A stretch of 64,000 nucleotides of DNA. It comes from Morinoia aosen (Eukaryota > Arthropoda > Malacostraca > Amphipoda > Talitridae). The stretch is taken from positions 36,368,068 to 36,432,067 of the forward strand of contig CM059566.1 in the NCBI GenBank assembly GCA_030386875.1. Direction: 5' to 3'. Every line of letters begins with the position of its first letter. The first letter of the stretch is position 1. Made by a program: the position numbers and the translations under genes. Of the stretch, positions 23,791 to 55,250 are shown piece after piece. The notes beneath the pieces are model-generated. The model was not told where the DNA came from and did no database searches. It worked only from the letters and a program-made list of their open reading frames with translations.

Positions 23791-23895
23791 ATGGCCTTCT
23801 TCAAAGCAGTGTCATTTCTTTGCGTTTTTTCCCTTACGTTATCAGTCACTGCAGGTGTGGCTCTTCTACCTACATCAGCAGACAAACTTCTACAG
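23791..23895 (+). CDS. TGF-beta ligand exon 1: signal peptide
   Basis: ATG at 23791 (context GACATGG) starts 35 codons ending at CAG|GTACGA, phase 0. The first 22 residues have a short basic/polar start and a hydrophobic core, a clear secretion signal. An in-frame upstream ATG at 23719 would bury the signal behind 24 residues, so 23791 is preferred. The exon may start at 23682 as 5' UTR after a TTGCCAG acceptor. Confidence 0.8.
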
Positions 23896-26800
23896 GTACG
23901 ATGACCTTTATTTGCTTAATATTTCCGTGCATTACTTACCATAAACTGGAGCTTGTGAATGGTTCTACATTGTGGACATCCATGCTCTGCAGAATGGTAC
24001 ACAGTGTTGGATTCACACTTTTATTCCAATGTTTTCTTGATGAAAAGCAGCTAACACAATGTTAAAAAATAATAATTTAGGAAACTTTTTCTGGGCAGTC
24101 TTTGATGAAAATGTTACAAAAAGTGAAAAAATGTGCATTTTCTCACTCTTTACGACCATAAAACGATCATCAACATTTCAATTTAAGCAAGTGAAAATAC
24201 AAATTAATAATATTTGAAAACGAATCATTCTCATAATGAAGTTGTTTCCATTTTAAACAACACTCTGTAAACCATTAAAGTAAATCTTACCTTGAACTGG
24301 GAACAAGATTTCCCCCATCACTTGCTTCAGAGTTGTTCACTTGTGACGCCATACGAACACACGTACCAGAAGTATATGTGTTCCACTAAACTCTTCGAAC
24401 ACACTTGGCAGGAATATATGAGTTTCGCTAAACTCTACGAACACACTTGCCAGGAATATGAGTTTCGCTAATTCTCTTACTGTCAGAAGTTAAGATAATA
24501 TCATCTCAATAATGTTGCTTTTTGTGTTATTATTCAGGGCTGTGAGCATGCACCAGCTTTTATTGAACTCTCGCGTAAATGTTGCTTTGATTGTACTGCG
24601 ATTTGCTTGAGTCGGCATTTGCTGTGAATAACTGAATTTTTGTGCATATCATCGGTTGTTGACTTGAGCATTTCACGCATAAACTGAGATGAGCGTGAAA
24701 AATTTAATAAGACTGGAAAATCGCAGCATGTTTGTCAACTTTGAACCACAAATTTTTATTGAGTTACTTTTTCACTCGCATCACTCTCCGGTTACCAAAG
24801 GCTTGAAAATTATTAATAATCCAGCGTGAAATGAGGGACAATAAAGCTTTTAAAGAAGAGGTGACACGTGCATCCGAAAAAACGGGAGTAAATATTTAGA
24901 AATCAATTACTTCAGTAGTGCTTCAGAGATAAAAATAAAACTCGAAAACGAGGCCTAAATGTTTTACGAGGAATTTTTAGAATATAATAATACATTATTT
25001 TCAATTCTTCTCTCTCTCTCTCTCTCTCTCCCTCCCTCTCTCTCTCTCTCTCTGCTCACGGTGAATTGTTTACCTTTTTTGTCACCTCGCGACGCTTTCA
25101 ATTTTGAAGGCTCCAGGAAATCCAAGCAGCATCTGGCAATTTAAAATTCTTCATTTTAAATTAAGCTACTACATAAAATTTCTCCCAAAACCTGTATTAT
25201 AAAAATTTGTAAACTAGACATACTATTAGTTTGGTAACACCATAACCATGCCAGTAGTTGATAAAGCTGAGGGGAAAATACTAAATGGATTGCATCCGTT
25301 AGCTTATTTTAGTTTGAAAAGGAGTATGAACAGTGGATCTGAAAAAATTAGCAGTCATTGATAAAGAAACCCTTTGAAGTCATAGTCTGCATTCACTAAA
25401 ACGTGTGAACTTCATGATGATGCACTAGTGACCGACATTATAGAAAGAAAAAGAGCGAAAAGAAAACAAAAACTTCGCAACTAGGGTGCTGAATGCCAAC
25501 TGGTCATTTTGACCAGTTGTGACGTGAAAGTAGGCCAAATATAAGGATTTAAAATAAATACCAATCCAGTAACCCTGAGGCCGGTGGTTGCGTAGGCACA
25601 GATCCTCAGCATGCATTCGCCCTCCAACAGCTGCTCGACTTGCCCGGGCCTGGAGGTCACAGAGTGGATCCTCCTCAAGTCATGCTCGAGTTGTACTCCA
25701 GAGTGAGCCAGTCTTCCCCCGACTCGGCTCAACTTCCTCATGGTGCCACTACTGTGACAGCCGTCCCAGCCTCAGGTATCTAAGTTCGAGACAAATGTCA
25801 ACCCTTATTATTTTCAAAAACTTCGACTTATCTTTAGAAATTCCCCCCGTTATTGTTTTGCGTCCCCTCGTCAGCAAATTCCGACTGTTGAAAATGTGTA
25901 TTTCGTACGTGAAATGCAATGATATCACGACTGGGTGCTGTTATTCATTTCATTCAAGAAATTTCTCTAAAAAAACAGCAAGATCTGTGAAAAAATTGTT
26001 ACTTTACATTATTCTAAAATTTAAAATAAGAATCCTGGTACGGTATATTTTCGCAGAATATATTCTCCATATATGTACCTACACATGTAAAGTCATATGC
26101 CTTCATTCACCAGCATCTCTCAATGTTTACTCTTCAAATCTTTGAACAACAACATTTTTCAACTAAATTCGTATTTCTCCTCGAATGTGGAAATTTATAA
26201 CGCATTGTACATCGTCAATTCATGTTCTCATACATGCAAAATAAAACTCGTGAGTACACACAACGCATTCCATAACCTTAAAATCTTACAATAATGGTAT
26301 CTTCAAAATGATGGAATATTTCTCCACGAATGTGGATAGTTGTAACACATTCACAGTGATAGTTGTAACACATGAAGCAATGAACATTGGCCATTCATGT
26401 CCTTACGCAATAAAATCTATCACTAGTAAGTGCAACGCTATATTTAATCGTCAAACCTTCTAACATTAACACTTTCAAAATAAGAAAATATTTCTCCATG
26501 AATGTGAATCATGGCAACACACTGTACATAGTTCATTCATGTTCCCACACAAGTGAAACCTCATACATACGTAACATCTAACTCACAGTAAAAACTAACT
26601 CATACGCAATGTTGAATCCTAAAACATCGACATTTTCGAAACGCGTGAACATTTGTGCGAGCAGTGGAGGAAGAAGGGAAGTTCCACTTCGTGCTGCCGT
26701 CGCTCCACCAGGCCGAGGAGGTGGTGGGTGTCGAGTTCCACATGCACCACGGCCACCTGCAGCACTTCTCCACCCTCACGCACAGGGGCATCACTCTGCA

Positions 26801-29763
26801 GGTGGGTGAGGGGAGTGGAAGGGTTATCTCTACTCTACAAGTAAGCGCAGGAAGTGGAAGTATTATCTCTACTTTACGAGTAAGTGCAAGAAGTGGTAGC
26901 GTTATCTTAGTTATCTCTACTATACAAGTATGTGCAGGAAGTGGAAGTGTAATCTTATGATTAGTTGATTAGTTATCATTGCCGACATGATTAGTTTTTG
27001 AGTCGAAATAAATCGTAAAAACTCACGCCTACTCAAATTCAAATTTCTTGAGCATCGGCGTTTCATCGACACCAAAAGAGGCTTTGTGTATTGTAAGAAA
27101 TCACAGCGAGAGCCCCAAACGTCGTTTTGAAATTCTTTGTGATATATTAGTAAAGCACATTTATGGTGACAAATTTGATAGCCAATTCAAAATTAGATTT
27201 CGCAAATACATGTGAGCAGTAACAGACAGCTCAGCCAAAAGCAGTAAAATGTATTTTATTTTATGTTGAACAGATGTTCGCTTTGCTTTAATTTCAGATT
27301 CACTAAAAATTTGAAAGCGAAAAAAAGCTGATAAAATTAGTTATTTTATTATAAATAATTGAAAACTGTTTATAGACCAGCTCCATCATCAGTTCTGTAA
27401 AATACAAAGTATGACCAATTGAATACAAGCATAAATGATCGATAATGAATTTCATACTTTCCATGAAAAAATAGAAAATACAATTATGCATTGACCCTTT
27501 GCCGTCTAAGTGAGTGTCAAAATCTACTTTCATAAATAGTTCTAATATATTTTATTCCTTGTGAAACTTGTGCCCCAATGAGTTTTCAGAAGTTCATTGC
27601 CGACTTGTGGTAGTCCCTTCCCCGCTGTGATATCGGTGACTCCATGATGCCGGTGCCAGTTTAATGATGGTGCTTGAGATAACGGTAATATGAGTACAAA
27701 ATGCGAACATTAAAGCGTTAACTATCTGAAGAGGATACGAAACACAATTTTGCATTAACTATCTGGAGGGCTTACGGACGTTCGAACGTTAACTATCTGA
27801 AGAGGATACGAAAAATAATTTTGCATTAACTATCTGGAGGGTTTACAGACGTTCGAGAGTTAACTATCTGAAGAAGATACGAAAAACAATTTTGCATCAA
27901 CTATCTGGAGAGTATATGGACGTTCGAGCGTTAACTATCTGAAGAGGATAAAAGCTGAGCCTATTGTCTTCTTCACTGTAGGTTGAGGCCCAAATTTACG
28001 GAACGGAATCAAGCAGCACCCAAATCCTGTCGGACCCCGCCACTGGCTGGTACAAATTCCCGCTCCAGGCTTCCGACGTCATTCAGTTCTACAACGAAGA
28101 AGACGCCAGCGAGAAGTTACCCCTTACCATACGCACCAGGTTTACTACAATTGTAAGTACATATAAAAAAATTTTCATTACAAATGTAAGCACGCAGAAA
28201 ATTTCTCTACGGGTACTCTAAGAATTGGTTTTAATTAATGGCCTTTGTTTAAGTTAAGAGAAAGGCAGTCAAGAGAGACATGTGGTTGTGCATTCTGCTG
28301 TCGACGGCTGAGAATAGTTATTTTATGACTTTTCAAACCTATGTAAATAAATTCCACATTCTGACTCATTTTTCAAGCTAGAAGCGGTTCAGTGAGACTT
28401 ATTGACATAGACTCAATTATTTTTCATAGAGTTGACACTTAGTGTTCGTGCCAATTTTTTGAGCTAAAATCTATATTACTCGGGATTTTCAGGGCCTTAC
28501 TCTGCAAAAAAAGTTAGCGTCCCATGCACCCCTCAGGGGGATACAACTATTGTATCTATGGGAATTGGCGCTCCCAGGGGGAAAATGTATGAAGGCCCGA
28601 GCTGCAAGTTAGGTAGGCCTTCTTTATGCCAAAATAAAAAGTGTTTTTCTTGTTGTATTAAGGACCACCTTTTTTCAGTTCAATGGTGTGCTGTTTTCAT
28701 CACCTACTACTTTCTCTTTCAACTTTTATCTCATTTCATAAACCTCTTACTCAGCTTACTGTTTCTACGCTTTTCTGTATAGATTCCGCGTTCCCTTATC
28801 TCCATACTAAATGGTGCCTTCCTCCATCCTCATACAATTATTTTACGTTTGCACGTCGTGCAGAACGGAGAGACCGTCAACCTGAAGCCTCACCGCAACA
28901 AAGCCTCGCGCAATCAAGCGTCGCTGCTGATCATCTTCTCGAGAAAACGAACCTCTTCGCTCGATAAAAATAACCCTGACATTTGGCATCGTGAAGATCA
29001 GAAAGGTATACGGGTAATTCACCTATCACCAATTTATAACTAGCTTGTTGCACAAGTCAAATAAGCCTTAGTGATGGGATTGCATGCTAAACCTTGCAGG
29101 GAATGCAAATCTTTATTTCAAACTCGCTGAAAATTTTTACTTCGAAAATTGTTTTTTTGGCTTTTTTAACAAGTGCACAAACTAGGAAAATGGGCTTAAT
29201 TTGTTCGGTGCTCTATCGATAAAGCAGACATTTTTCATTCTCCTTAACTTCCATGAGTAGATTACTATTTGTCATTGCCAATACTGCATTTTCTCGCCAA
29301 GCTTTCACATACTCTACAGAGTTAATAATTTAGACCATGAAGTAAATAAACATATTTTCCAGAACTAATCACCCACCGAGCAAAGCGGTCGCTGTTCAGC
29401 GATCTGTCCGAGTCGAGCAGCAACTCTACGAGATCCTTCCCCTCGACTCCGAGCGAATGCTACAGAAGGTCCCTTACGATAAATTTCTCTCAGATCGGTT
29501 GGTCGTCGTGGATTATCGCTCCTGCTTCGTTCGATGCGTTCTACTGCTCAGGAAGCTGTGGATTTCCTATTGGCCAAGACATGAACCCGACTAACCACGC
29601 TGTGGTTCAGAGCGTCGCAAGGTTACTCAACGAAAACCTACCTGCCCCGCACTGCGTTCCCAGCTCTTATTCAAGTCTAAGCATGTTGTACGTTGATTCT
29701 TTTCAAAACGTCGTACTCAAGAGTTATGAACAAATGATAGCAGATTCTTGTGGGTGCCACTAA
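23791..29763 (+). CDS. TGF-beta/BMP-type secreted ligand, six-cysteine form (6 exons)
   Basis: Six exons join in phase: 23791-23895, about 25610-25775 (or from 25580), 26665-26801, 27982-28152, 28864-29005 and 29363-29763. They encode about 373 (or 383) aa. Residues 1-22 form a signal peptide (FFKAVSFLCVFSLTLSV core). Residues about 36-240 are a TGF-beta propeptide, with PPQVMLELYSRV, EVVGVEFHM, TGWYKFPL and ASLLIIFSRK typical of the family. A furin site RAKR (246-249) releases a mature ligand of about 124 aa. Its knot domain has Cys at 273, 302, 306, 338, 370 and 372 and ends CGCH, with BMP-like IGWSSWIIAP and NPTNHAVVQ. Residue 337 is His where most ligands have the interchain-disulfide Cys (HCVP instead of CCVP). 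N-glycosylation sites are NST (261) and NFS (281). The closest class is BMP; no specific orthologue is assigned. The cysteine loss is seen in GDF9, BMP15, GDF3 and Lefty, but that does not prove orthology. Confidence 0.9.
24340..24475 (+). repeat. Short minisatellite in intron 1 of the TGF-beta gene
   Basis: About three copies of a 45-60 base unit with CGAACACAC, CAGGAATATGAGTTTCGCTA and ACTCT run in tandem. The second and third copies are closest to each other. Confidence 0.65.
25011..25052. repeat. (TC)n microsatellite
   Basis: A CT/TC dinucleotide run with a short CCCTCCC interruption, in intron 1 of the TGF-beta gene. Confidence 0.9.
25610..25775 (+). CDS. TGF-beta ligand exon 2: start of propeptide
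   Basis: The frame reads FALQQLLDLPGPGGHR then PPQVMLELYSRVSQ, the N-terminal propeptide motif of BMP-like ligands. It ends at CCTCAG|GTATCT with one base carried over. Acceptors in phase 0 with exon 1 are CCTCAG before 25610 (preferred) and CCTGAG before 25580, the latter adding 10 residues. GTAG and ACAG acceptors nearby are out of phase with exon 1. In-frame TAA at 25781 shows the intron is real. Confidence 0.75.
26040..26664 (+). repeat. Degenerate 145-175 bp tandem repeat reaching the exon 3 acceptor
   Basis: Three imperfect copies share AATATTTCTCCACGAATGTG, TTCATGTTCTCATACA and CTTCAAAAT. The last partial copy (CATCGACATTTTCGAAACGC) runs into the exon 3 acceptor at 26663-26664, so the splice site appears to sit in the terminal unit. 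Intron 2 of the TGF-beta gene. Confidence 0.6.
26665..26801 (+). CDS. TGF-beta ligand exon 3: propeptide
   Basis: It begins with TG (completing a Val codon with the G from exon 2) after GCGAGCAG. It encodes EEEGKFHFVLPSLHQAEEVV and GVEFHMHHGHL, then RGITLQ, and ends at CTGCAG|GTGGGT in phase 0. The AEEVVGVEFHM segment matches the family's EVVGAEL-type strand. Both junctions lie inside or beside tandem repeats (see the separate repeat entries). Confidence 0.85.
26795..26960 (+). repeat. Donor-containing tandem repeat after exon 3
   Basis: The exon 3 donor (CAG|GTGGGTGAGGGGAGTGG) is followed by three repeats of about 50-60 bases. Each has a GTAAG/GTATG-like donor (ACAAGTAAGCGCAGG, ACGAGTAAGTGCAAG, ACAAGTATGTGCAGG), then AAGTGGAAG and TTATCTCTACT. 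The repeats align with the true donor at the same register. Confidence 0.75.
27705..27955 (+). repeat. 71-bp minisatellite before exon 4
   Basis: GTTAACTATCTGAAGAGGAT recurs at 27717, 27788, 27859 and 27930, a 71-base period. Each unit holds a second half-copy (ATTAACTATCTGGAGG), so the unit is itself a diverged dimer. The array stops 27 bases before exon 4 of the TGF-beta gene. Confidence 0.9.
27982..28152 (+). CDS. TGF-beta ligand exon 4: propeptide
   Basis: Exactly 57 codons, phase 0 at both ends, lie between CACTGTAG and ACAATT|GTAAGT. They encode VEAQIYGTES, the conserved TGWYKFPLQASDVIQF segment (family GWEVFDVT-like position) and LTIRTRFTTI. There is no stop or frameshift. Confidence 0.85.
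28529..28832 (+). repeat. Dispersed repeat family A, plus copy in intron 4
   Basis: It begins CCCCTCAGGGGG, then GATACAACTATTGTATC (palindrome), GCTCCCAGGGGGA, GGCCCGAGCTGCAAGTTAGG and a T-rich middle. It ends with TTCCGCGTTCCCTTATCTCC and ACTAAATGGTGCCTTCC. It is about 305 bases, with no coding capacity conserved between copies. Confidence 0.8.
28864..29005 (+). CDS. TGF-beta ligand exon 5: end of propeptide
   Basis: After CGTGCAG the frame gives NGETVNLKPHRNKASRNQ and ASLLIIFSRKRTSS, the family's PFLVVFS-like strand, then a polar linker. It ends AAAG|GTATAC with one base carried to exon 6 (G+AA = Glu). The upstream end lies about 30 bases after a copy of dispersed repeat family A, so that element sits just outside the acceptor. 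RKR in this exon is a possible second basic cleavage site. Confidence 0.85.
29363..29763 (+). CDS. TGF-beta ligand exon 6: furin site and mature cystine-knot domain
   Basis: Starts after TTTTCCAG and ends at TAA 29761-29763. It encodes HRAKR (cleavage), a Ser/Thr-rich linker of about 23 residues, then the complete knot domain of 101 residues from the first Cys to the final His. Landmarks are CYRRSLTINFSQIGW, FYCSGSC, NPTNHAVV, PHCVP and CGCH. The codon CAC at 29650-29652 gives His in place of the usual Cys next to CVP, and the surrounding frame is intact. Confidence 0.92.
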
Positions 29764-37779: not shown

Positions 37780-37933
37780 GTGGCCCCCACCCGCTGGAGC
37801 GGGAGCTCAACGCAATCAGCAATGAATGGCTACCGGATTTAATTGGTGGTGTGGGGTGGGAGAGGAGCCTCTTATTATGGCTGGTATATAGGCCGGTGCC
37901 GGCCCCTGCCATCCATGCTTAACTAAGTTCATC
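37780..37933 (+). promoter_or_regulatory. Probable TATA promoter of the triple cystine-knot gene
   Basis: A GC-richer block holds TATATA at 37885-37890, followed by a GC-rich GGCCGGTGCCGGCCCC segment. The ATG lies 44 bases after the box, giving a predicted 5' UTR of only about 15-20 bases if initiation is about 30 bases after TATA. Position relative to the signal-peptide exon supports the call; the start site itself is inferred. Confidence 0.45.
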
Positions 37934-37991
37934 ATGGCCGCTACAGCGCCGCTCCACCTTTGCATCTTATTCTTCGTCCTTCTATCTTTAG
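37934..37991 (+). CDS. Triple-knot gene exon 1: signal peptide
   Basis: ATG 37934 (CATCATGGCC context) begins 19 codons with a strong hydrophobic core (LCILFFVLLSL) and ends at TCTTTAG|GTACTC with one base carried over. It sits just after a TATA-type promoter. The donor lies at the head of a tandem repeat. Confidence 0.8.
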
Positions 37992-40900
37992 GTACTCATG
38001 AGTTATGTGGTGGTCACTCATGAGTAATGTGGTGATGGGTACTCATGGGTACCCATGGGTAATGTGGTGATGCGTACGAGGTACTCATGAGGAATGTGGT
38101 GCTGCGTATTCAGCGTATTCAGGAGGAATGTGATGTTAGATACGAGGTGCTCATGAGGAATGTGATACGATGCACCGAGTAATCAAGAAGAATATGATGT
38201 GATGTACCTCTTGGGTAATGTGATGTATAATTTAGGGTAGTCCTGGGGAATGTATTATCTTGAAGTACTTCGGGTTCCTCATCAGAAAATGTTATGCACT
38301 TTGGCTACTAATGGATAACGTGATGTTAGATACTCATGAGAAATGTAATGTAATATAATTCCACTGAGTAGTCATGCGAAATATGGTATTATGAGCTTTT
38401 TTTCGCTCCTGAAAAACGTCTTCTATTTCTCTATTTTTCTGCGGATAAATGAGGGTGGGATATTGTGTGCTGCATCCGGGAGTTTATAAGAAAGGGTCTA
38501 TTTTTTAGGCCATTCAGGTGTTTAATAGACTTATTTTTTGTTCAGTTATTTATACTGTGCAGTTTTTATTCATTTTAAGTACCGATAAAATAATGGGTTT
38601 GATTTTTAGGAAAAATCGAAGTTCCTGTCATTTTGGCTATGTATAAAAGAAATCTTTTTTATTTATACCGGTCCTTTTGTGAAACAAATCTCTCCTCAAT
38701 GCCCTTTTTGTTTTTCCTACCAAGATATCTAGAACAAATTTTTCAAGTGTATTTTGGTCCATATGTTCATAGTAACAGAATTTTGCCTCTTTGTACTTTT
38801 AGGTACTTTTCCTTGTATGCTTGAGTACTATAATAGGTCTGTTTTCTATTTCTTTCATTCTATACAACAGCTCTAGCAACATGAAGAACTGTGATTAAAA
38901 TTAACTTTTTTCAGTGGCTCAGAAAATACGTGTTATTCCAATTTTTCTCTACCCCAAAAAGTAATCTGAAATATTACTTTCTACTTTGCTACTTAGGCGA
39001 GTTCTAAGCATCAAACTGCACCATTTCTACTACCATTATTTTGTTGTAATAACTACTGATAAATTGTAAAAGTTATAACTAGATTTTCTGCCGCGACCTG
39101 CGTATATGAGCTTTTAGAGCAAATATAATTCTTTTTTTAGTTCAGTTTGATAAAGCATCCGACCTAATTTCATTTTTTGAGCCTCTGCGATTTTCAAAAT
39201 CGTTTATTGCCAAAGTTTGTTTGAAATACTGCTATTGTTGAAGTTTCTCTCTATATTTCCAAACGGTAAGGTTTTTACAGGAACCTTTTACCGTTAAAAT
39301 TTCTTCACAAACAACGAAATTTCTCTAAAGCATTTTACTGTTCGTATGTCAGAAGCATGCAATTTAAAAAAAAAATTCAAAAAACTTTTTAATTTTTGTT
39401 TCTGTAAAGTTTTACTACCGTTAAAGTTTCTTTTTGCCTTATATAATTAACCTCTAGGATCTACCGTCAAAGTTTGGATTTAAACTTTATTCCAAAGAGT
39501 TTCTTCAGAAAGCCATTTTCGATGTGAGATTCTCTAAGACCATGAATCAATAAAATCCGTTGTTTTGTTAGCTCCACAGCAAAAGATTCTAACACCGTTG
39601 TTGCTCACTACTTTCCAGTTTCAGGAGCAGCGTGCAGCAGCCTTCACACTCCCCGAAATGGCATTAAATGCTGCGCCAGGAGAAGCAAAATCCTTTCCGT
39701 AGGCAAAGATGGTGAGTGAAGACAGGGCCCATAACGATTAAATTACAAATTCCAATTCCCACAGTTATGATCGAATTACAAATTCAAATACCCCCAGTTC
39801 TCATTACGATCAAATTACACTTAATTATTTCCCAAGTCAAGAAAATTTATTTTGGTCGTTGAAACAAGTGTTTAATTTTCTACCTTTTTCCCAATCATAT
39901 TTCTGAGTCATTGAAAATAATATTTATTCTCAGTTTTTCACTACCTGTCAAGTTCATTTTCAGGTTTCATTCATTTTCAGTTTCCCCTAACCTGTCAACG
40001 TCAGCTGACAGGTTTTTCATTCTCACTTCATGCTCAGTTTTCATTCATTTTCAGTTTCCCCTAACCTGTCAACGTCAGCTGACAGGTTTTTCATTCTCAC
40101 TTCATGCTCAATTTTCATTCATTTTCAGTTTCCCCTAACCTGTCGATGTCACCTGATACGCTTTTGATTCTCAGTTCATTCTCAGTACTTGTTGACCAAT
40201 CAATATCAGAATCAATTTTATTTTTGATTTCATAAAATCAGAATCATTCTTTGTTTTTATATCATCCGAATACATTTTAATTTTTTTACAACAATTATTG
40301 GAAATTTGACCACAGCTGCGTCAGGTGACGTTATCAACGTCGACGTGGGAGAGTGTAAGAATCGATGCCATCACCATCATCATCATCAGCCGCAAGTCAA
40401 GAAGGAAAGATTTCAGCAACTCCTTAGGGAGAACTCGCATCTCAGCCCTGAAGAGGTAAATATTCGTTCTTTTACTTGTTATAACCCAGCATCCTTCTCT
40501 CTGAAATCTTAATAAGCATCCCTGAACCTCCTGAGAGTCAGATATATTTTTCCTCATGACTACGTGGAAAAATGTAGCGTGTATGTTGAAGGAAATGTTC
40601 GCATTCAATTTTGAAGATGTGAATATTTGTTCTTTTACATGTTATAGCCCTGCATCTCCTACTTTAGAGCCTTCGTGAGCATCCCTGTACTGTCTGAAAT
40701 GAGTTAGTTGATTTTTATTTTCTTGGCGACTTCATTGAAAGAAATAAGTCAGTTGATTTTTTTTCTTGGCGACTTCATTGAAAAACGTAGCTTGATGTTT
40801 TGAAGGAAATTGAAGGGAATTTGAAGGGAATTTGAAGGAAAAAGGTACCTTCACGTTAAAAATGCTTCCTACCATGAACCAAATTGTAATGATTATTTGT

Positions 40901-43900
40901 TGCGGGCACAAAATGTCACGGATTTTCAAGTCTTGTTCTCCATATATTTTAGTTTCCTTCGATTTTGTGCGCTTGTAGCATATTATTATTATTTTGCGTA
41001 TTTCGCGTATTTCTGTGTTGAGGCAATTTCCTCGACAATTCGAAAAATATTCGCGAACTGACATCTTATCGTCCGAGCAAAAAACTACCGATAAACCGAG
41101 GCTCATCGTAGTATCCCGATAATCGTATTGACTTTTGTCAATAGTTAACTCTCGCTCAGGCTTCTAGTTATCCAAGCTATCGTTGTAAATATAATTTTCA
41201 AATTCTAAGCTTTGACGGACATCAACCGAGAAACGTCATCTTACTGCATTACGACCATTTCAGCTAATTATTTTCTGTACTTGTGTACTACCGTTTTCAA
41301 AACTGAAGGCTTATTGTTCAGGTGAAGGGAAGCGTCCCCCTTTTGGACGATTTTCTGTAAAATTGAACTTAGAGCAATAAAAATTAATATGCTGAAAGGA
41401 AATGCAATTTGGAATCATTTGTTATCTGTGAAAAAATGCGATTTTCTGTAAAGAAAACGAAAAATTCATAGAAAACAAAATTTTGGGGGAGGTTTTCAAA
41501 ATGCATCTCCTCCTACAGATTTCAAGCTACATTGATGATTTTGGTAGCATTGGATGCAAAAAGACATGGGCATTCCAAAAACTTAAATGGAATTCTTTTA
41601 ACTTATAGTTTGAAATGATTAAAAAAAAATACAAATGCATGTTTTTTGTAAAATTTCATACTTTATGACGTCACAACTTTTGATCATGAATGAATTTCGA
41701 ATTTCCATTTAAGTTTTTGAAATGCTCACGTGTTTCCACATCCAATGATATCAAAATCATCTCTGTAGCTCGAAAACTGTAGGAGGAGATGCTTTTTGAA
41801 ACCCCACATTCCGATCCTCCAAAATAAGGTAAACAAAGAAACATAAACAATTGTAATTAAAATTTTTTTAAATTTTTTGGTTCAGGTTAGACCCCTGAAA
41901 TCATTATAGAGTAATCCAGAGACATAGGAGATGACATAGCAACGTCAAGTCGTAAAGAAAGTGGCAACGAGGAAGGTGTAACATGATGAAATACCACTTC
42001 CCCCTCCCCTCCCCCCATATTTCAAACCCCCGTAGCGGGTGAACGAGTGAACGTACGAACCTGATTTTTTCACAGGATGTACCTGACATCTTACCCTTCC
42101 GAATAGCAGCTATAAATCAATATCCCTAGAAAGTTCTACATTCTGGGGGTACGCTCCTCTGAAGCCATGAATTCAAAATGAATTTGAACGCATTTTATTG
42201 AATTGCAAAAGTAGAAATCAAATTAAATTTATGTCCATCACGTAATGTTCAGATTTGGATTTGCAGGGCGCGTGTTGAGAATAAATGGCCAATGAAATAT
42301 GTTAGCAAGCGAGCAATAAAACAAACAAGCAAGCAAACAAACAAGGTGCAAACTGCGGATTAGATAAGGGATATTGTAATCCTTAAACCGTGGCACTTTA
42401 CTGGTTTTTATCTCAAGAGCGAATTTATTGCAGTTCCGATTGGTAGATTTTCTGCCATTATTCTCTTTAAAAATAACCAATTTGTTAAATTGAATTTCTT
42501 CTCAGATTAACAGCTAATTTTGAATGCATTATTCACAACAGATGTCTCGAAGAATATCAATTGCGCATTTCAGCTTTCCTGCTAGCAGCTGTTTGTGGCA
42601 CGTAATTTACGACAGATTCCTGTCATTTTCGCAGCAGATTGTTCACGCGACGTAGTGATCAGATTGTTTTAATTAGCATCCACAGAGCAAATAACGTCCA
42701 AACATCTCCTTAACATTTTTTCAACAATTGTCGGGGTAGATTTCGCGTTTCGACACCGACATCGGACTAGCTAGCGATTACTCAGACCGGAATACGAGTG
42801 GAGTGGTCTCGGCTTACGCCACACGGACCGTCGCGTGTACACACACATCCTGTCTGGGGCCCCATGAAGAATGTCGAGTGTGTGTGTATCTCGCGGGATA
42901 TTGCGTGCATGATTACCAATATGGTCCTGACCTCCTGAGGCATTGCATCTAATGAGATAATGCCTCTCATGATATATTGCCTCTCATCATATATTGCATC
43001 TCATGAGATATTGTATCTCACGGGATATTGCGTGCATGATTACCGATATTGTTCTGACCTCATTCAACTTTGCTGACATCACTTATGAGCTAAAGGTTAC
43101 TGAAGTGCTGCCAAACCTTTTCAGTTTGAAATATTTATTATACACAAATTGATTGCAACAAGAGGCTTTGTTAACACACTTCAACTTTGTGACTTACAAA
43201 ACTAGCGAGTGAGTTTAACTGATTCTAAACATCGATCGTCAAAAGAGACTGAACACATTTTCAACTGATTCACAAAGTGAAATTGCTGAAAATGAGAAAC
43301 TTCACGCACGTAACCTGACAGACGCATGCGTGCACACGAATATTCACCCTATAGACATTGCACTCAACAGCTTTGGTGAATAAACTAAATATTCGCACTA
43401 AACAGACACAGCTCATAGTAGACGAATGCACGCAGACGTTCACAGCGAGAACACCTGATTCACCACACCTAATCTACGCAGCTCTCCACACTCTCCTCAG
43501 TAGAGACATTCACAACGAGTAGAACACGTAGTTCACCACACCTAATCTACGCAGCTCTGCACACTCTCCTCAGTAGAGGCATTCACAACGAGTAGAACAC
43601 GTAGTTCACCACACCTAATCTACGCAGCTCTGCACACTCTCCTCAGTAGAGGCATTCACAACGAGTAGAACACGTAGTTCACCACACCTAATCTACGCAG
43701 CTCTGCACACTCTCCTCAGTAGAGGCATTCACAACGAGTAGAACACGTAGTTCACCACACCTAATCTACGCAGCTCTGCACACTCTCCTCAGTAGAGGCA
43801 TTCACAACGAGTAGAACACGTAGTTCACCACACCCAATCTACGCAGCTCTGCACACTCTCCTCATTAGAGACATTCACATCGAGAACACACACAATTCAC

Positions 43901-46900
43901 CACACTCTACGCAACTCTGCACACTCGCACGCAGGTGTACAGAGCAGAGCGGAGCCGCCTGCGGAGGACCCAGACGTGCGGCGACGGTGAGGACTGCTTC
44001 CCGAGCTCCACGAGCCGCGTCTCCTACATGATGCAAGAGGGGAACCTCAACGTCACCATCACGGAGGCGTGCTCCTGCGAGCCTGCTGTGCGGGAGTGTG
44101 TCAGGTGTGTTGTGTGCTCTGAAGTTATGGCCCGTTACATCGCTTCTTTGCTCCGGGAAATTATGGCGTGTTTCATTACTCAGGGAAATTATAACGCGTT
44201 TCATTATTCAGGGAAATTATAATGCGTTTGATTGCTTCATTACTCAGTGAAATTATGATGTGTTTAAATGCTTCATTGCCCAGAAAAATTTTGACATGTT
44301 TAATTGCTTCATTACTCAGTGAAATTATAAGGGATTTCAATTGTACCAGCCGGTTTTTTGAAAGCTACGGTTCAAAATCATGAGAAGTGTGAACTGTATT
44401 GCTATTTATTTTGCGGTTACGTTAAAATTATGCTGTGGAATCATGAAGGAAATTGTCTGTACTCTAGTAAATTTTACACTTCGATTTGATATTGTGAGGG
44501 TTATGAGTTGTATCATCTACAAAATTTAATCAGATTCGGAAAGTCATTATGCCTGTACTGAATTCTTTTAAACTGTTCTGTTTCATTATGCCCTGCTCAA
44601 TTTCATCAGATTCCTAAAAAATTTTGTGCTGATGTTTATCTGTGAAATTGTGCGGGCAATTAACGTTACTCTTTTTAAATATTGTTAATTTATAAAGGTA
44701 TTGTTTTTTAATTAATATCTAGTTTTTATACGTCTCACGTATTTGAACATTTTTAAACGAACTATACGTGAAAAGTAAAGAAAAAATAGCTGTTATAAAG
44801 TAATCTTCAAGAAAATCTCGGTAAAAAGATAGACAGTCATTGCGGTGTGACGTGTACAAACGCACATACCTATACCCACAAACCCACGCATAAAAGACCT
44901 ATTTATTTATATACACACATGCACTACACAATTCACACACTCACATGTGTGTATCTATGTAAACGTATTTACGTTCACCATGACATCACGAGTCGGCGAC
45001 TTCTTCTCCTGTAAATGAGATCATCGCACTAGAAGGGAGCTGTGTCAAGTGAGCTATAGGCAATGAACTGTGATTAGTCATAGTCCCCTGAGGGCAACCC
45101 TTAAACTTCATGTTACAAGTTTCGCCAAATGAAATTTAATGAAATTGAAAAGAGAAAACACTAAATTTCCCTACTGGCGGCTCTCGTGGAATTTATTGTA
45201 CATTTACAATCTAGATTATCTAGTTCCATTTACTTTCGTTCTGTTTCTGTGATGTCTGATTCTAAGCTCGTTTTTATATTGAATTACAATTACACAAATC
45301 AAACATCTATACAAAACCAAAGTTTTTTCTAAACGTGAGTTTAGAAATTGGACAAATTTTGCATTCATTTTTCAGTGAACTCACACACATTTTCATCTAC
45401 ATCTTGAAACTGAAAACTCCTTCTTTGAATAGCTTTTTACGAGCCTTTAACAAGTACGTATATGTTTCAAAATAAAATGCAAAATTGAAAAAGACATGTA
45501 GCGTCGTGACCCTATTTTTCTGTTTTTATGTTCCTTATTTTCAACTCACCAGCAACCCTGCAAAAGCTCATTCTAAACTTCTACTCAACGTCATACTTAG
45601 ACAACCATTTCCCAAATCGACATGTGACAAATCCAACTCGTGTGAGTCACGTCATTTCACGGAGATTTAGCTCATGAAGGAAAATTGTTGATACTTTCGT
45701 TGATTGGCGTAGTTGCTCAAATTTAGACATGATCATGACGTTAGATCTTTATTTAATGTTGCAGGCGCCCGCAGTGGGTGACATTCCACGAGGGAACACC
45801 TCTGCAGACAAGTGTTGACGTTGGCGCGTGTGAGGGGCCGTGCTCCGTTGCCGGTAACTTTATATTCGCTACTGCTCGTATTTATACTACCATATTTATA
45901 ACACTTCTACAGTGGTCAGGTGACCGTGTTTTCGTTTTGGCCTCATTTGGGTGACGGGCGGCCGCAATAGGTGATGAGGTGTTCGATTGAAGAATGTTTT
46001 TCTAAGTGATTTGGTTTTGGGACAAAGATGAGATATAGCTTCTGAATGACAGAAGCTTTAGGTGGTGTTGAGAGAATTATGGGAGTTTGTTGAAAGAGTT
46101 AGAGCATACTGAATAGCAGAATTTAAAGGTTAAATATGAAAGAAATATTGGGATTGCATGAAGTTTTGGGTATTAATTGAAAGAAAAGGTAAGCGCAAAG
46201 CGGAATTTTAATAAAATGAAAGCGGGGGTACTTTATGCCACCTGAGTTATTCGCACAACTGGTAGGAGTGTTACAAACTATACGTCCGTCGCACACACAC
46301 GAAGGTTATTTACTAGTTCGTGGGTAAAAAGCGTAAGAAAAACTAAAACTAAAAAAAGTGCGGACTAAGAAGAGAGTGAGCACCAACAGGCGTATACCAG
46401 TGTAGACTGAATAAACAGGTTGAGTCGGAAAACTAGAGATAAACCTTAATTTATAGGTACGTACATATTACATGTAGGTAAATATGCGTAGGTACATACA
46501 TTAGTTGTGTTTGTAATTTTTCTGTGCTTTCTGTTCATTCTAGTCGGAATCATTACACGCCTATAAGCCTCCTTTCGCTCTGCACTCTTACAAATTTAGT
46601 TTTATAGTTGCTATTTTTTACCTAATGTTATACTTTCATTGGAGTCAACTTTTTATGCACTGTTCCATTTAATGCAGAGTTTAATGTTATTTTTTGCATT
46701 CTCTTCTGATGACTGATTGCAGTGATCGAAAGCTCTTCAGATAAAGTTGATCAAAAAGAAGTTCAAACTATTATGTTTTTTTTATCTTTTATTTTGTGTT
46801 TCGTGATTGTAAGATAACAACTAGGGGCTGAGGAGTGTTTTATAGCATTGTATCGAAAGCAATCACTGTTTTTGTTAGGATAGACGAAGTTAAATGAAGC

Positions 46901-49900
46901 AGAGCAAAACAAATTACACCCATCAAATTATTCTTATTAGAAGTCAGATCCATGAGAGGACCCATAATGGCCATGAGCTTTTTTGTGTACTCCGGGTGTG
47001 TTGAATACTTCGTTTTTGTACGACTAATTTGAATGGGCGATTTTGAGATTTGAAAAAGAATTACCAATATTATTATGGCAGCAATATGACTGGAATAAGC
47101 TTATTGATATTAGAATAGGCAGCAATGTGACTAGAATAGGTTTTACTGAGATCATGTAGCAAATTGAAATAAGCATTGGCGTTAAGATGGTAGAACAAGT
47201 GAAACTAAGACCAAAACAGGCGTTATTGAGATTAAAATTGGCGGTATTCAAATAATAATTGACGTAAATAAGATTAGACTAGAAATTAAGGAGTTCAACA
47301 TGGGAGTTAATGACATTAGAGCAGGCCGTAATGAGGCCGCAATCTAAATAAACTGCTAGGATTCTCCAAAATATTTTGCTAACATTTTCCTGTGTAGTAT
47401 TTCTGTTCTTGATAATTTCAAAAATGCACCCCTTGAAATGAGGTTGAAATTTTATAGCCCTTTTGAAACATGCGGAAAATTTTGAATATCTTTTGAAACG
47501 TATTTAAAACGTGAAAACCCATCGAAATCAGATTCAAGAATTGTTAAACATTTCAATCTTAAAACCTCTTGGAATGCGATATGAACTTTGTCATCTACCT
47601 TGAATGATAACTTAATAAAAAGATTTAAATTAAATTTTAGTAAACTGGAGACTATTTACACGAATTAAAAATACGATGCAGTAGATATACATTTCCTGCG
47701 TGTACGACGATGTATACTTAACAATTTATCAGCAATGAAAATTCTAATAAAATAGTCCATTTTACGCAGGAAATTAAATGAATCGAAAAGATTTCGAAGA
47801 CTAGCTCTTTCATCAGCAGCATGAAGAAATTATGGAAAACACTTTCAACAATAACAAAAAAATTGTTCGAGTAAAACGTTCCTTTCCATACAAGATTCAA
47901 ATCTGAGATCCAGAATTTATGTATTTCTTCAGTTACTCTGCAATTGCATGCAAGTTTCTTCACTCAACTAAGAACAAGCATTCTTCCTAGTCATCACCCT
48001 GTCCATAACGATTGAGTTGCTTAGAATTCTGAAATCATCCCCACTCTCGGCAGGAGACGGATGCAGGGCTACGCACACAAGGACCATGGCTCTGACTGGA
48101 CCTAATGGTGAGTTATTATTTACAGCTAAATATTTCTAAATGCAAGTCGCAGTTGTCATTTTTGATTACCTTGCTAGAATGAAGTGTAAATGTTCAATTA
48201 AAAGGCAAACATATCGAGTGGCAAAACAATTGTTATGTTCTAAGGAATATAGAAAAAAATCAAGATAAATCTATTTAAAAGTAAAAGTTGTATTGGAAGC
48301 AAACATGCTGTTGTGATGCATAATTAAAGGGGGAAACAATTCCTCATTATGATACGGGCTGATCTTGGACCTTTAAATAGCTGAAAGAAAATAACCTAAT
48401 GATATACGAAATATTTCATGAGGTAAACGACGACAGCTTATAACTCTTCAGTACTTTTGTACGACGAAGTTCATTTTGGTTATTGTTTTTAAATTTTTGA
48501 ACTGCTGAGCATGGCAATAAAATTACTATTCTATTTATTAACCATTAATCATGTGAGAAAGTGTTGGTACTGTAAGTTGTGTACGGTTTTGTTCATATAA
48601 ATTTATTTATTAAACATTATTCACGCGAGACGGCGTTGATACTTTAATTCTTGAACGTTTATGCTTATGTATTCATGTTTGCTTTAACGTTCTTAGTTCA
48701 TTTTAAAATGATTAAACAAGCGTTTTTTTCTATTATCATGCCCCTCAGACTAAACAAGTTCCCGCTTCTTCTACTCAGACCATAGTTCTCTAGAACTTGT
48801 GAAACCTATACTATAATAAGAGCCGCGTCCGTCTGTCCGTGTGTCACACCCTCCAGCAGAAAGTGTGTGATGAGCGTATCTGTCATACAAGCTTCATCAG
48901 CTCCACAATTTTCGGAGTATTAACCCAGCAGATTAAGAGTCGGAATGAATATCACATGTATTGGTAGATTAGATTTTGTTGTATAGAATATCTGCAGTTG
49001 AGACTTAGGAGAGTATAGGAAAGCCATAGAATAGCATGGATAATCATGGGAAAGCTATGTTAAAGCTCAGTTGGTCTGATATCCAATCCTGTCATTTTTT
49101 GACGGGCCGTGTGCTCTAGTAATAATAAATTCACGGCTACGTTTCCAACAGTGATAGTGATTACTTAAACCTATGCCCCCTTCAGGAGATGTTCCTATAA
49201 ATTTAACGTGTTTGTTACTGAAACGGACCAAGCTACTCACTGAATCTCTTCAAATTTTTCTTGTTCCTCGTTGACTGATTTTAATTTTTTCAGTCTCTTC
49301 TGTTCCTCGTTGACTGATTTCAATTTTTTCAGTATTTTTTGTTCATCGTTGACTGATTTCAATTTTTTCAGTCTCTTCTGTTCCTCGTTGACTGATTTTA
49401 ATTTTTTCGGTCTTTTTTGTTCCGCGTTTACTGTTCTCAAAAGTATTCTCCAGTAGTATATAAAGTATTTATAAGCTTTCAATCATCATGCCCTGGATAA
49501 AATATCCAAGCGAATATATTTTTATTCTTTCTCTCAATAGCATAACCAACCCCTGACATGGCTATTGCGCACTTCGTATGGTGTGACAATCAATTAGGTG
49601 TCTTCATAATAAGGAATTTTTAAAATCTAATGTGTTGTAATACATTTCATACATATATCAACATTTCTGAAAAATAAACGGTTTTTCTTTCTTTCTTTCT
49701 TTCTTTCTGAACAAATAAGTGATACATTTCATTTATCAACTTTTCTGAGAATAAGCGGTTTCTCTTTCTTTCTTTCTTTCTTTTTCTTAACAAATAAGTG
49801 ATACATTTCATTCAGCAACTATTCTGAAAATAAACGGTTTTTTTTCTTTCTTTCTTTCTTTCTTTCTTTCCTATCTTAAAAAATTAACCTACTGAACAGG

Positions 49901-52900
49901 AGCGGAGTGTGTGTCGGTGGTGGAGGAGTGCAGCTGCGTGGGGAGCTGCTACAGAGCCGCGCACCTCCTCCACATATACAACTTCACCGCCCACTCCGGC
50001 GGGTGGACAGGGGGTGGTCACCACAGGAAAATTGAGGTTGGTCTAAATTGAGGTTGGTCTAAATTGAGGTTGGTCTAAATTGAGGTTGGTCTAAATTGAG
50101 GTTGGTCTAAATTGAGGTTGGTCTAAATTGAGGTTGGTCTAAATTGAGGTTGGTCTAAATTGAGGTTGGACTAAATTGAGGTTGGTCTAAATTGAGGTTG
50201 GTCTAAATTGAGGTTGGTCTAAATTGAGGTTGGACTAAATTGAGGTTGGTCTAAATTGAGGTTGGTCTAAATTGAGGTTAGTCTAAATTGAGGTTGGTCT
50301 AAATTGAGGTTGGTCTAAATTGAGGTTGGTCTAAATTGAGGTTGGTCTAAATTGAGGTTGGTCTAAATTGAGGTTGGTCTAAATTGAGGTTGGTCTAAAT
50401 TGAGGTTGGCCTAAATTGAGGTTGGACTAAATTGAGGTTGGTCTAAATTGAGGTTGGTCTAAATTGAGGTTGGTCTAAATTGAGGTTGGTCTAAATTGAG
50501 GTTGGTCTAAATTGAGGTTGGTCTAAATTGAGGTTGGTTACATCAAGGAAATTGAGGTTAGTCTAAATTGAGGTTTGTCAAAATTGAGGCTGGTTACAAC
50601 AGAAAATTTGAGATAGGTTATAACAGAAATTGAGGTTGGTTACAACAGGAAAGTTGAGGTTTCCTCGGGTAGTATTTCACTTATCGACTTCAATATATGA
50701 AAAATATGGAACGTTAAAGTATGGACTTGATCTGAAGATAATCTGTATGATCATCTGATACGTGTAAGTAAAGTAAGTTATTTTCCTTATATATTGATCT
50801 ACGTTTATTTATATCTTCAATGTGATGATAAAGATAATCCGTAGAAAACGATGTGAAGTGTCGACTTAGCTGTGGTATGAAGGTGAAAATATGAAATGGA
50901 ATAGAGTTACGATGTGAAGTCGAAGATGTAATGTGGCAGCAAAGAAACGATGAGAATATATTTAAATGGTTTGAAAATAAAAATTTCGTTTGACAGTAAA
51001 GATATGATATGAAGGTAGATATGCGGTCTGATCATAAAGAGCTGTTAGAGTAAAGGTACCGATATCTTACATGGGTATTTTTGTATGTCAGCGGTTACGT
51101 AGGTTTGTGTTAATGAATAATTAAACAGCCATATTTCACATTGTTACGAAAAACAGTCAAGAACTGATGCAGGTTTCTGTATTAAAATTAGCAAAATAGA
51201 GTACACATTTTTAATCAACTAATATCCGATCTTTTAATTTTGTTCTTCAAATACCTGAAATTTAGATTCTTGGAAAATTATTTTTGAATTTACAGTGGGT
51301 TATTTTATTGTTCAATACTTTTATTTCATGAATTTAGTTTTCCTTTTACAGAGAGGTATATCTATGTGTTTTTTGATACATATGTATCAATACGTGATAC
51401 ACGCATGAAATACTTGAACATGTTTTGGTGCTACTTCAACGTAGCACCCTGGGGTGCATCAAAAAATACTTATAACGTTTCAAAATGAAAATATGATCTG
51501 TGACAAGATTCCCTAAAATCACAGTTCATAAAAAAATTGTAATTATAGTTAAATTAGCTGTCCAAATAAACTTCTATACGCATTATTGCTGGAGAGAGAA
51601 ACACTCCTCTAAAAATTGACGATGCGTTTGGCTCGCTAACGCACCATTCCTCATGCATGAATCTTCATTAAGTGTTATAATTCTCTGAAGAGCTTCAATA
51701 ATAAATCTTCTATTCACTCCGTGAAAAAATCCTAAATTTCAAACTATTATTCTAGAAGAACCAATAACAACTTAGTTTCTCAGTTATTGTACTGTACAGT
51801 ATTTTATTGTACTGTTTATTTTCATGTGAACTACCCCCCTAAAACAGTTTCTCTTAGACAATCGTCGCGGTTATTTAGTGTGAATGAATTATTAGAATTC
51901 TGTAGTGTGTTTGTTCGAGTGATCATCGAGCCATATCAATCAAGCCATAATCAAGTCATAATCAATCTCTATAGCCAATTAGATATATGTACGTAGTACT
52001 GATTCATACGCCTGAAAAACTTTTAAAATTCGGAATTATAACATTCCGAAACGTTTGCCATAAAAAAGAAATAAATAGAAATATATATTTTTACGTTGGT
52101 TCTCTTGTTTATCTTACGCCTGAGATTCCCTAAGAATCGACCTATTAGAAATATGAAAAAAAACTTACTGTTACACGTACTGCGTTCCAAATCTCATTGT
52201 GTGTGCATTTTATAATTATTTAGAAATACTGGTTCATTATTTAAATGCTGTTTTATTTTTATCTTTACGCGCACACGTGAAACGATCTTTTCACATGTGG
52301 TGCAGACAGGTGATACATCTCACTGAGAACAATCTCATAAGGTTTTAATTTTATGTTTATTGGTAATTCTAGCAATTTAAGCTCAATTATTTCAGGTGAT
52401 CGACGTCGGCACTTGCGTAGGAGACTGCAGCACCAGCGATGGAGAGGGGAACTGCGTTTACGAGTGAGTTTTTACTTAATTTTTCCTATTTAGATCCCAT
52501 TTTTAACAAACATGTGTTGCATTTCATACATTGCATTGCGTGCCAAATAGATCTTCCTGAACTTATTTAAGTTTCATAAGCACTTCATTAAAATCATGCA
52601 TTGCTTACCAATTTGAGCAATTTTGAAACTTATTCCTCATTAGTTTTTACGTTGCTTGTTAGCTTCACATCTCTGGATGGCTTCAAGTCTCATAAACTCA
52701 TTGAAAATATGAAGCTAACTGATTTGACCTGTTTATCATTTTGAAGTCGCTCGAAAACCTCATTACGAATTATTTTCTGAATGAGAACTTGAAATTTATA
52801 AATCTATCCGAACAACACAGACACCTCATTTCAACTGATGAACCGCTTTTCAATTTAGATTTATATATGCGCAACAAACACGTCGTTACAGTTTATGAAA

Positions 52901-53255
52901 TGGCGAATTCATTCCATAAAATGAAGTATTGGGAGTCAACTTTGCTTATCAGATCCTTGCAAGCCATAGAAGTACCTAATTTTTGTAATATACTGACTAG
53001 AAATCGAAGATACTGACTATAAATCTACGGTAGCCACACGCAAACTTCCCATCATAAAATGACACTACTGCGCTTTCTAACCGCGTTCTAACATCCGCGT
53101 TTTGCAATCGCAGATCCAGTGGCGGCGACTGCCTGATGTCTCTCCAGCACAGGGAGAAGACCTGCTCCGCAGCCACCCATGAAGTCAGGTCTTACCACTC
53201 CCACGACGGCATGCTGAAAACTCTCAACGTCGTGAAGGACTGCGAGTGCTCCTGA
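37934..53255 (+). CDS. Secreted triple cystine-knot-repeat protein (9 exons, 314 aa)
   Basis: Nine exons join with consistent phases: 37934-37991, 39625-39711, 40316-40455, 43935-44104, 45765-45853, 48054-48107, 49900-50036, 52396-52463 and 53114-53255. A signal peptide (about residues 1-20) is followed by 24 cysteines. After a short CC-containing lead (C23, C35, C36) come three repeats with seven Cys each: 62/66/110/116/141/143/150, 174/178/185/203/210/212/216 and 252/256/265/274/285/311/313. Each begins with a (V/I)DVG(x)C motif and contains CxxxC (CEGPC and CVGDC are canonical CxGxC; the first is CKNRC) and a late CxC (CSC, CSC, CEC). CxGxC plus CxC is the ring signature of cystine-knot growth factors and CTCK domains (bursicon, DAN and mucin-end families). 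I do not recognise the exact family. Probable role is an extracellular ligand, antagonist or matrix component. NVT (134) and NFT (227) are glycosylation sites. Confidence 0.85.
37988..38400 (+). repeat. Degenerate tandem repeat at the intron 1 donor
   Basis: Starting at the exon 1 donor (GGTACTCATGAG), units of 25-50 bases such as GGTACTCATGAGGAATGTGG and GGTACCCATGGGTAATGTGG recur with decreasing similarity. At least three carry a copy of the donor-like GGTACTCATG. Confidence 0.7.
39625..39711 (+). CDS. Triple-knot gene exon 2
   Basis: After TTTCAG (alternative CTTTCCAG six bases earlier keeps frame and adds Val-Ser) the exon encodes GAACSSLHTPRNGIKCCARR and SKILSVGKD, then G|GTGAGT. It holds three cysteines outside the three seven-Cys repeats and a basic patch. 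Confidence 0.75.
39940..40150 (+). repeat. 74-bp minisatellite in intron 2, three copies
   Basis: CCCCTAACCTGTC starts at 39984, 40058 and 40132 (74-base period). Units contain CATTTTCAGTTTCCCC and, in the first two, a hairpin-forming CCTGTCAACGTCAGCTGACA. Confidence 0.9.
40316..40455 (+). CDS. Triple-knot gene exon 3: first DVG-C motif and His6
   Basis: Starts after GACCACAG and ends GAAGAG|GTAAAT, phase 0. It encodes INVDVGECKNRC directly followed by six His codons (40369-40386), then a charged, Cys-free linker (VKKERFQQLLRENSHL) that may be helical. CxxxC lacks the Gly of the canonical CxGxC. Confidence 0.85.
40446..40720 (+). repeat. Direct duplication starting at the exon 3 donor
   Basis: GAAGAGGTAAATATTCGTTC at the donor recurs as GAAGATGTGAATATTTGTTC at 40613, followed in both by CTTTTAC, TGTTATA and CCC(A/T)GCATC. 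Period is about 163 bases. The second copy retains a GT at the donor position. Confidence 0.75.
41485..41815. repeat. Inverted repeat (foldback), arms about 120 bp, intron 3
   Basis: The left arm (41488-41606) has ATGCATCTCCTCCTACAG and AAAAACTTAAATGGAATTC. The right arm (41694-41813) reads as its inverse, with GAATTTCCATTTAAG and CTGTAGGAGGAGATGC. The loop of about 85 bases is AT-rich. It may be a miniature foldback element. Confidence 0.75.
42940..43065 (+). repeat. Short imperfect repeats of CTCATGATATATTGC
   Basis: Four or five copies of a 22-24 base unit (TGCCTCTCATGATATAT, TGCATCTCATGAGATAT, TGTATCTCACGGGATAT) run in tandem. The segment GCGTGCATGATTACC at 42902 and 43031 repeats as well. 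Confidence 0.65.
43440..43934 (+). repeat. 73-bp minisatellite containing acceptor-like units, ends at exon 4
   Basis: AGTAGAACACGTAGTTCACC recurs at 43518, 43591, 43664, 43737 and 43810 (exact 73-base period), with diverged end copies. Each unit has GCTCTGCACACTCTCCTCAG, a pyrimidine-rich CAG. The last copy reads CTCTGCACACTCGCACGCAG and is the real exon 4 acceptor. Confidence 0.92.
43935..44104 (+). CDS. Triple-knot gene exon 4: rest of repeat 1
   Basis: Starts after GCACGCAG and ends TGTGTCAG|GTGTGT with two bases carried over. It encodes a basic segment (RAERSRLRRTQ), CGDGEDC, an NVT glycosylation site and EACSCEPAVREC. Its acceptor lies in the last unit of a 73-bp array, and its donor is followed by another small array. 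Confidence 0.85.
44120..44335 (+). repeat. Tandem repeat after exon 4
   Basis: About five to six units of 33-45 bases share TTCATTACTCAGGGAAATTA and TAATGCGTTT. It begins within 20 bases of the exon 4 donor. Confidence 0.7.
45765..45853 (+). CDS. Triple-knot gene exon 5: start of repeat 2
   Basis: Between AATGTTGCAG and GCCG|GTAACT. It encodes RPQWVTFHEGTPLQTS then VDVGACEGPC, with a canonical CxGxC. The exon completes an Arg codon with two bases from exon 4 and carries one base onward. Confidence 0.85.
46840..47340. repeat. Degenerate repeats of ATTAGAATAGGC type, intron 5
   Basis: Short imperfect units (GCAGCAATATGACTGGAATA, GCAGCAATGTGACTAGAATA) and related TTGAGATTAAAATTGGCGG-like words recur. 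Minus-strand ORFs 46840-47251 arise from this composition. Confidence 0.45.
48054..48107 (+). CDS. Triple-knot gene exon 6: small exon of repeat 2
   Basis: A 54-base exon after TCTCGGCAG, ending AATG|GTGAGT. It encodes GDGCRATHTRTMALTGPN, in phase with both neighbours. Being a multiple of three it could be skipped without frameshift, removing one Cys of repeat 2. Confidence 0.75.
48798..49125 (+). repeat. Dispersed repeat family C, longest copy (possible Helitron-like)
   Basis: Left end ACTATAATAAGAGCCGCGTC, CGTCTGTCCGTGTGTCACAC; right end TTTTTTGACGGGCCGTGTGC. The interior matches 18070-18300, and the segment GTGTGTGATGAGCGTATCTG also occurs at 63008. No TIR or coding frame is visible. The CCGCGTCCGTCTGTC start and GC-rich palindromic end resemble non-autonomous Helitron/Helentron derivatives, as a tentative class. 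Intron 6. Confidence 0.55.
49250..49445 (+). repeat. 39-bp minisatellite with branchpoint/acceptor-like unit
   Basis: GTTCCTCGTTGACTGATT recurs at 39-base spacing (49263, 49302, 49341, 49380), each followed by a TTTTTTCAG-like end. Because 39 is a multiple of three, repeat-derived frames stay open on both strands. Intron 6. Confidence 0.9.
49640..49880 (+). repeat. Three 60-80 bp units with embedded (TTTC)n
   Basis: Each unit has AAATAAGTGATACATTTCAT, a TTCTGAAAATAAACGGTTT-like part and a run of 4-8 TTTC. The array ends 20 bases before the exon 7 acceptor and supplies a pyrimidine-rich upstream region. Confidence 0.9.
49900..50036 (+). CDS. Triple-knot gene exon 7: end of repeat 2
   Basis: After CTGAACAG it encodes AECVSVVEECSCVGSCYR, then a Gly/His-rich linker with NFT, ending AAAATTGAG|GTTGGT, phase 0. 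The donor is a weak one (GTTGGT). It forms the first unit of a long 16-bp array that begins inside the exon's last eight bases. Confidence 0.85.
50029..50560 (+). repeat. 16-bp minisatellite (about 31 copies) starting in exon 7
   Basis: The unit GTTGGTCTAAATTGAG is repeated almost perfectly to about 50537, then degenerates to about 50660. Variants are GTTGGACT, GTTAGTCT and GTTGGCCT. The first half-unit (AAATTGAG) is the end of exon 7, so each unit reproduces GAG|GTTGGT. Confidence 0.97.
52396..52463 (+). CDS. Triple-knot gene exon 8: start of repeat 3
   Basis: Between TTATTTCAG and TACGA|GTGAGT. It encodes VIDVGTCVGDC with a canonical CxGxC, then STSDGEGNCVY. Two bases carry into exon 9. 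Confidence 0.85.
53114..53255 (+). CDS. Triple-knot gene exon 9: end of repeat 3 and stop
   Basis: After ATCGCAG it encodes SSGGDCLMSLQHREKTC, a YHSHDG turn and LNVVKDCECS followed by TGA (53253-53255). The protein ends one residue after the final CxC, like many cystine-knot ligands. Confidence 0.88.
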
Positions 53256-55132: not shown

Positions 55133-55250
55133 CCCAGTCAAACTTTTTCGCCGCCTGCATGCATGTTTTTCGCCACCTAAGCGATTTAATCGCTTAAATC
55201 ACTTAGGCGGCGAAAAACATGCATACAGGTGGCGAAAAAGTTAGACTGGG
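55133..55250. repeat. 118-bp near-perfect palindrome
   Basis: CCCAGTC at the left pairs with GACTGGG at the right. The arms contain CTTTTTCGCC, TGCATG and TTTTTCGCC elements and meet at GCGATTTAATCGC. Arms of about 55 bases have a few mismatches. It is directly followed by a second small hairpin (AGTGTGTCAAGATTGACACA) at 55251-55273. Confidence 0.9.

Follow-up and report, generated by a model that had tools for sequence, protein, structure and literature searches.

A candidate Pinhead gene encoding three cystine-knot frameworks downstream of a BMP-type ligand gene in Morinoia aosen

Organization of the locus

The window analyzed here is the whole stretch of 64,000 nucleotides of Morinoia aosen DNA. 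It contains a BMP-type ligand gene of six exons (384 aa) and, on the same strand and 8.2 kb downstream, a nine-exon gene for a protein with three cystine-knot frameworks (hereafter, the three-knot gene and protein; Table 1). The distance from the stop codon of the ligand gene to the ATG of the three-knot gene is 8,170 bp. The interval between the genes includes eight ORFs of at least 90 aa, and the three of these that were scanned against Pfam gave no match at the cut-off.

Table 1. Positions of predicted exons and a putative promoter element in the window
Feature	Position	Strand	Remarks
ADMP-type ligand exon 1: start codon, hydrophobic leader	23791..23895	+	phase and splice sites, picked by eye
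ADMP-type ligand exon 2: presumed propeptide (VMLELYSRV)	25580..25775	+	tentative acceptor
ADMP-type ligand exon 3: presumed propeptide	26662..26801	+	by eye
ADMP-type ligand exon 4: presumed propeptide	27982..28152	+	by eye
ADMP-type ligand exon 5: presumed propeptide	28864..29005	+	by eye
ADMP-type ligand exon 6: RAKR site for cleavage, then the mature TGF-beta domain	29363..29763	+	Pfam PF00019, E=3e-32
Pinhead-candidate core promoter TATATA, putative	37885..37890	+	starts 49 bp before ATG; consensus resemblance only
Pinhead-candidate exon 1: start codon, signal peptide	37934..37991	+	weak donor TAG/GTACTC
Pinhead-candidate exon 2: N-terminus, with module 1 beginning (CC...)	39625..39711	+	
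Pinhead-candidate exon 3: module 1 ring DVGECKNRC and beginning of long His-rich heel	40316..40455	+	
Pinhead-candidate exon 4: remaining heel (RLRR), module 1 C4 to CSC, first knot Cys of module 2	43935..44104	+	
Pinhead-candidate exon 5: module 2 ring DVGACEGPC	45765..45853	+	
Pinhead-candidate exon 6: module 2 C4 and part of second finger	48054..48107	+	
Pinhead-candidate exon 7: module 2 CSC and first finger of module 3	49900..50036	+	3′ end enters 16-bp minisatellite
Pinhead-candidate exon 8: module 3 ring DVGTCVGDC	52396..52463	+	
Pinhead-candidate exon 9: module 3 C4, second finger, CEC, stop	53114..53255	+	

The original prediction, that nine exons join in consistent phase into one ORF of 314 aa, was borne out: all eight junctions are in phase, GT-AG borders are present at 8/8 introns, and the product begins with a hydrophobic leader. 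The GC content of exons 2–9 is 0.50–0.65, compared with 0.31–0.41 in the flanks; exon 1 has the same GC content as its flank (0.50 and 0.50), and the GC3 of the gene is 0.70. When the codon use of the neighboring ligand gene is taken as the reference, the score per codon is +0.02 for the proposed frame and -0.24 and -0.25 for the other two frames. Weak donors are found at exon 1 and at exon 7 (GAG/GTTGGT, which recurs through the minisatellite), and exons 3 and 7 have acceptors poor in pyrimidines.

Repeats lie close to several of these exons. The 16-bp minisatellite (about 35 copies, 50029–50594) begins where exon 7 ends, the donor sequence of exon 7 (GAGGTTGGT) is present in 27 copies within 50001–50600, and read-through beyond this exon encounters a stop within five codons at most. 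A 73-bp tandem repeat (6.6 copies, 43448–43926) stops 8 bases short of exon 4, beside the acceptor. Elsewhere in the window, an inverted repeat at 55133–55250 consists of two 57-nt arms that are 91% complementary and separated by a 4-nt spacer, and may be part of a mobile element.

Cystine-knot modules of the three-knot protein

In the knots of growth factors, rings are formed by CxxxC and CxC. By the spacing of its cysteines, the three-knot protein has three tandem frameworks of this type, each with six knot cysteines, which follow the layout C1-x(25, 23, 35)-C2-x3-C3-heel(49, 6, 28)-C4-x(24, 24, 25)-C5-x-C6 (values for modules 1, 2, and 3, respectively). The proposed CxGxC in two of the repeats is indeed present (CEGPC and CVGDC), and the ring of module 1 is CKNRC. 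The count of seven cysteines per module has to be corrected to totals of 8, 7, and 8; outside the modules there are Cys23 and one cysteine in the leader. The protein after residue 22 has 24 cysteines, and it carries two N-glycosylation sequons.

The repeated DVGxC motif followed by a second cysteine occurs at three sites in the six frames of the window, all of which are located within the nine exons, and it was absent from all 30 mononucleotide-shuffled versions of the window; a looser pattern adds two minus-strand sites, which do not have DVG. In 20,000 shuffles of residues 23–314, DVG.C...C was found once in 17 shuffles and twice in none, and the framework from CxxxC to CxC was found once in 911, twice in 4, and three times in none. 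Three frameworks in one protein are thus far beyond chance expectation, with figures that are partly non-independent because the choice of exons was partly guided by the motif. The GC content of the exons and the codon scores depend less on that choice. A six-frame scan of the whole window for a complete knot framework within a single ORF gave one match, the upstream BMP-type ligand; the modules of the three-knot protein are split across exons and therefore cannot match in such a scan.

The modules have diverged from one another apart from the cysteines and DVG. Local scores of module pairs, compared with 2,000 shuffles, gave p = 0.003 (modules 1 and 2), 0.25 (modules 1 and 3), and 0.0025 (modules 2 and 3) with the cysteines included, and no significant likeness when the cysteines were masked (p = 0.52, 0.79, and 0.11, respectively). 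The 49-residue heel of module 1 includes a HHHHHH run (residues 67–72) and RLRR (residues 103–106); the latter resembles a furin site, and thus module 1 might be nicked. Overall, the evidence fits a secreted protein of three modules with a predicted cystine-knot-type fold.

Pfam includes models for the CTCK, DAN, bursicon, glycoprotein hormone, Spaetzle, Noggin-like, and Argos families. The original prediction had proposed a comparison with the models of CTCK, bursicon, DAN, glycoprotein hormone, and Spaetzle, and this yielded nothing: the whole three-knot protein and three overlapping parts of it matched 0 families of Pfam-A at E values up to 10, in a search in which the HMMER filters discard most weak matches. 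Assignment of the protein to any of the seven families named above was rejected on this basis. In the PDB, 53 sequences matched with E values no higher than 10, the best at E=0.0072; the top-scoring alignments start from the HHHHHH run and resemble matches to His-tags, and none of the PDB matches listed is named as a cystine-knot growth factor. One PDB chain was matched by a profile built from all three modules (YAP1, E=0.44) and one by module 3 alone (ThreeFoil, E=5), and neither match is credible. NCBIfam, a library built for prokaryotes, gave no match to the protein, and Rfam gave 0 matches at the gathering threshold. Pattern searches found 46 stretches in viral contigs and 98 in prokaryote genomes, with 0 confirmed relatives in either set, where a single-protein query reaches close relatives only. 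As it has no Pfam family, the three-knot protein will tend to escape automatic annotation.

The upstream BMP-type ligand

The ORF at 29350–29763 of the upstream gene encodes a TGF-beta domain (Pfam PF00019, E=3e-32), for which the best PDB matches are a BMP2/BMP6 chimera, BMP3, and BMP2 (E values from 2e-34 to 8e-34). The precursor is assembled from in-phase exons and has a leader and a RAKR site that precedes the BMP-type mature domain. A Pfam scan detected no propeptide, and exons 1–5 were placed by their reading phase, their splice sites, and a visual likeness to BMP propeptides.

With a query of 137 aa, PDB scores for the ligand are 122 bits for the BMP2/BMP6 chimera, 120 for BMP3, 120 for BMP2, 117 for GDF5, and 114 for BMP6, and are low for GDF2 (BMP9; 91) and BMP10 (88). 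By contrast, the Drosophila Dpp mature domain (102 aa, sequence entered by hand) has its top score with BMP2 (184 bits; BMP3, 107), and that of Gbb (102 aa, likewise entered by hand) with BMP6 (176 bits; BMP3, 103). The flat profile of the ligand, unlike the BMP2 and BMP6 peaks of Dpp and Gbb, argues against orthology with either and fits ADMP, or anti-dorsalizing morphogenetic protein, an embryonic growth factor. The upstream ligand is probably ADMP, as judged by its PDB score profile against BMP and GDF chains, although BMP3, which scores equal to BMP2, is a possible alternative identity.

BMPs carry a PCCVP motif, one cysteine of which normally links both chains of the dimer. At 29649–29661, the ligand reads PHCVP, and it seems not to have the usual interchain cysteine (PHC for PCC). 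One speculative idea, which we regard as doubtful, is that in this lineage the three-knot protein has co-evolved with an ADMP-type ligand of this kind, and either traps an ADMP monomer or replaces the partner in the dimer.

ADMP orthologs have been recorded in insects, crustaceans, and chelicerates (PMC4600745), including honeybee and Nasonia (PMC4218986), and Drosophila and Tribolium are described as lacking ADMP (PMC4218986, PMC4600745). Neither of these two standard insects can therefore serve for studies of an ADMP/Pinhead pair.

Identity and proposed function of the three-knot gene

Pinhead belongs to the cystine-knot proteins and carries several such motifs. In work from 2012, Imai et al. 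are said to have described it as an Admp-specific antagonist and as the tandem partner of Admp from arthropods to vertebrates, and reportedly also found that transcribing Pinhead disturbs the Admp enhancer; Itoh et al., in 2021, reportedly found that Pinhead binds Admp. The three-knot gene agrees with this description. Secretion and several knot modules are represented by the leader and the three six-cysteine frameworks defined by cysteine spacing, and tandem linkage with Admp is represented by the BMP-type ligand gene on the + strand, if that ligand is indeed ADMP. Since a secreted protein with three knots, whose gene follows a same-strand ADMP-type gene at a distance of 8.2 kb, fits the description of Pinhead, the three-knot gene is probably an arthropod Pinhead ortholog located in tandem 3′ of Admp, and Pinhead is the most likely assignment on the grounds of architecture and synteny. 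The original prediction of a secreted three-knot ligand or antagonist fits this evidence, but its suggestion of an undescribed family is less likely, given the agreement with Pinhead and the ADMP-type neighbor. Among the matches listed in literature searches, no paper on arthropod Pinhead was found by title, and none on the protein was found for Pnhd; literature beyond those matches may differ.

We propose that the three-knot Pinhead binds, in the extracellular space, the ADMP encoded by the adjoining gene. Such binding would limit the amount of ADMP that reaches BMP receptors, by which the gradient of Smad1/5 activity would be tuned. The tandem arrangement of Pinhead and Admp probably helps to separate the expression of both genes, which would involve coupled transcription.

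Pinhead is on record as a secreted regulator of ADMP (PMC11226491), and zebrafish Pinhead and ADMP are stated to regulate (repress) each other (PMC8753366, PMC8034876). Sources disagree on whether vertebrate Pinhead is an antagonist or a ligand. The main alternative to the proposed role therefore leaves the Pinhead identity in place and assigns to the protein the function of a BMP-like ligand or a promoter of Chordin degradation, rather than that of an ADMP antagonist. It draws on three reviews, in which zebrafish Pinhead activates p-Smad1/5/8, promotes Chordin degradation, and is termed a secreted BMP-like ligand, not an antagonist (PMC8753366, PMC8034876, PMC9504399). Three knots in one chain are, however, unlike a dimer of single knots, and a published title, taken from a reference list, reads 'Pinhead antagonizes Admp.' Work in Ciona is also said to have dealt with Admp-specific antagonism. 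We regard this alternative as possible but clearly the less probable of the two roles.

Two further readings concern the identity of the gene and the gene model. The blank results with Pfam and NCBIfam, the PDB search with no credible match, and the zero confirmed relatives among viral and prokaryote contigs (a result of little weight, as none would be expected there for an animal gene) would suit an undescribed, lineage-specific three-knot ligand or antagonist that is not related to Pinhead and lies beside a BMP gene by chance, but the architecture, the type of ligand, and the same-strand adjacency all agree with the description of Pinhead and Admp, which makes such a coincidence very unlikely. 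It is just as improbable that the gene model is partly wrong, with parts of two or more genes linked by their motifs or with exon 1, 3, or 7 misplaced, as the selection of exons by a reader from sequence alone, the weak splice sites at these exons, and the recurrence of the exon 7 donor in the minisatellite might suggest, because every junction is in phase, exons 2–9 are GC-rich relative to their flanks, the proposed frame has the top codon score, and the chosen exons complete every module.

If the three-knot protein is Pinhead, its gene is a useful annotation of an already known protein family. Both genes are apparently intact in tandem, and the locus is a place to ask whether regulation of the chordate type is ancestral.

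The comparison with known systems is as follows. CTCK, bursicon, DAN, glycoprotein hormone, and Spaetzle proteins share the same general knot layout of CxxxC and CxC, and they differ from the three-knot protein in that they are not known to have more than one knot per chain. The neighboring ADMP-type ligand has a leader, a RAKR site, and a BMP-type knot domain, and also differs in its single knot; unlike this ligand, the three-knot protein has no match to PF00019. Pinhead, compared by description, is alike in being secreted, in having several knots, and in standing in tandem with Admp in many animals, and the three-knot protein may be set apart from it by the 49-residue heel of module 1 with its HHHHHH and RLRR sequences.
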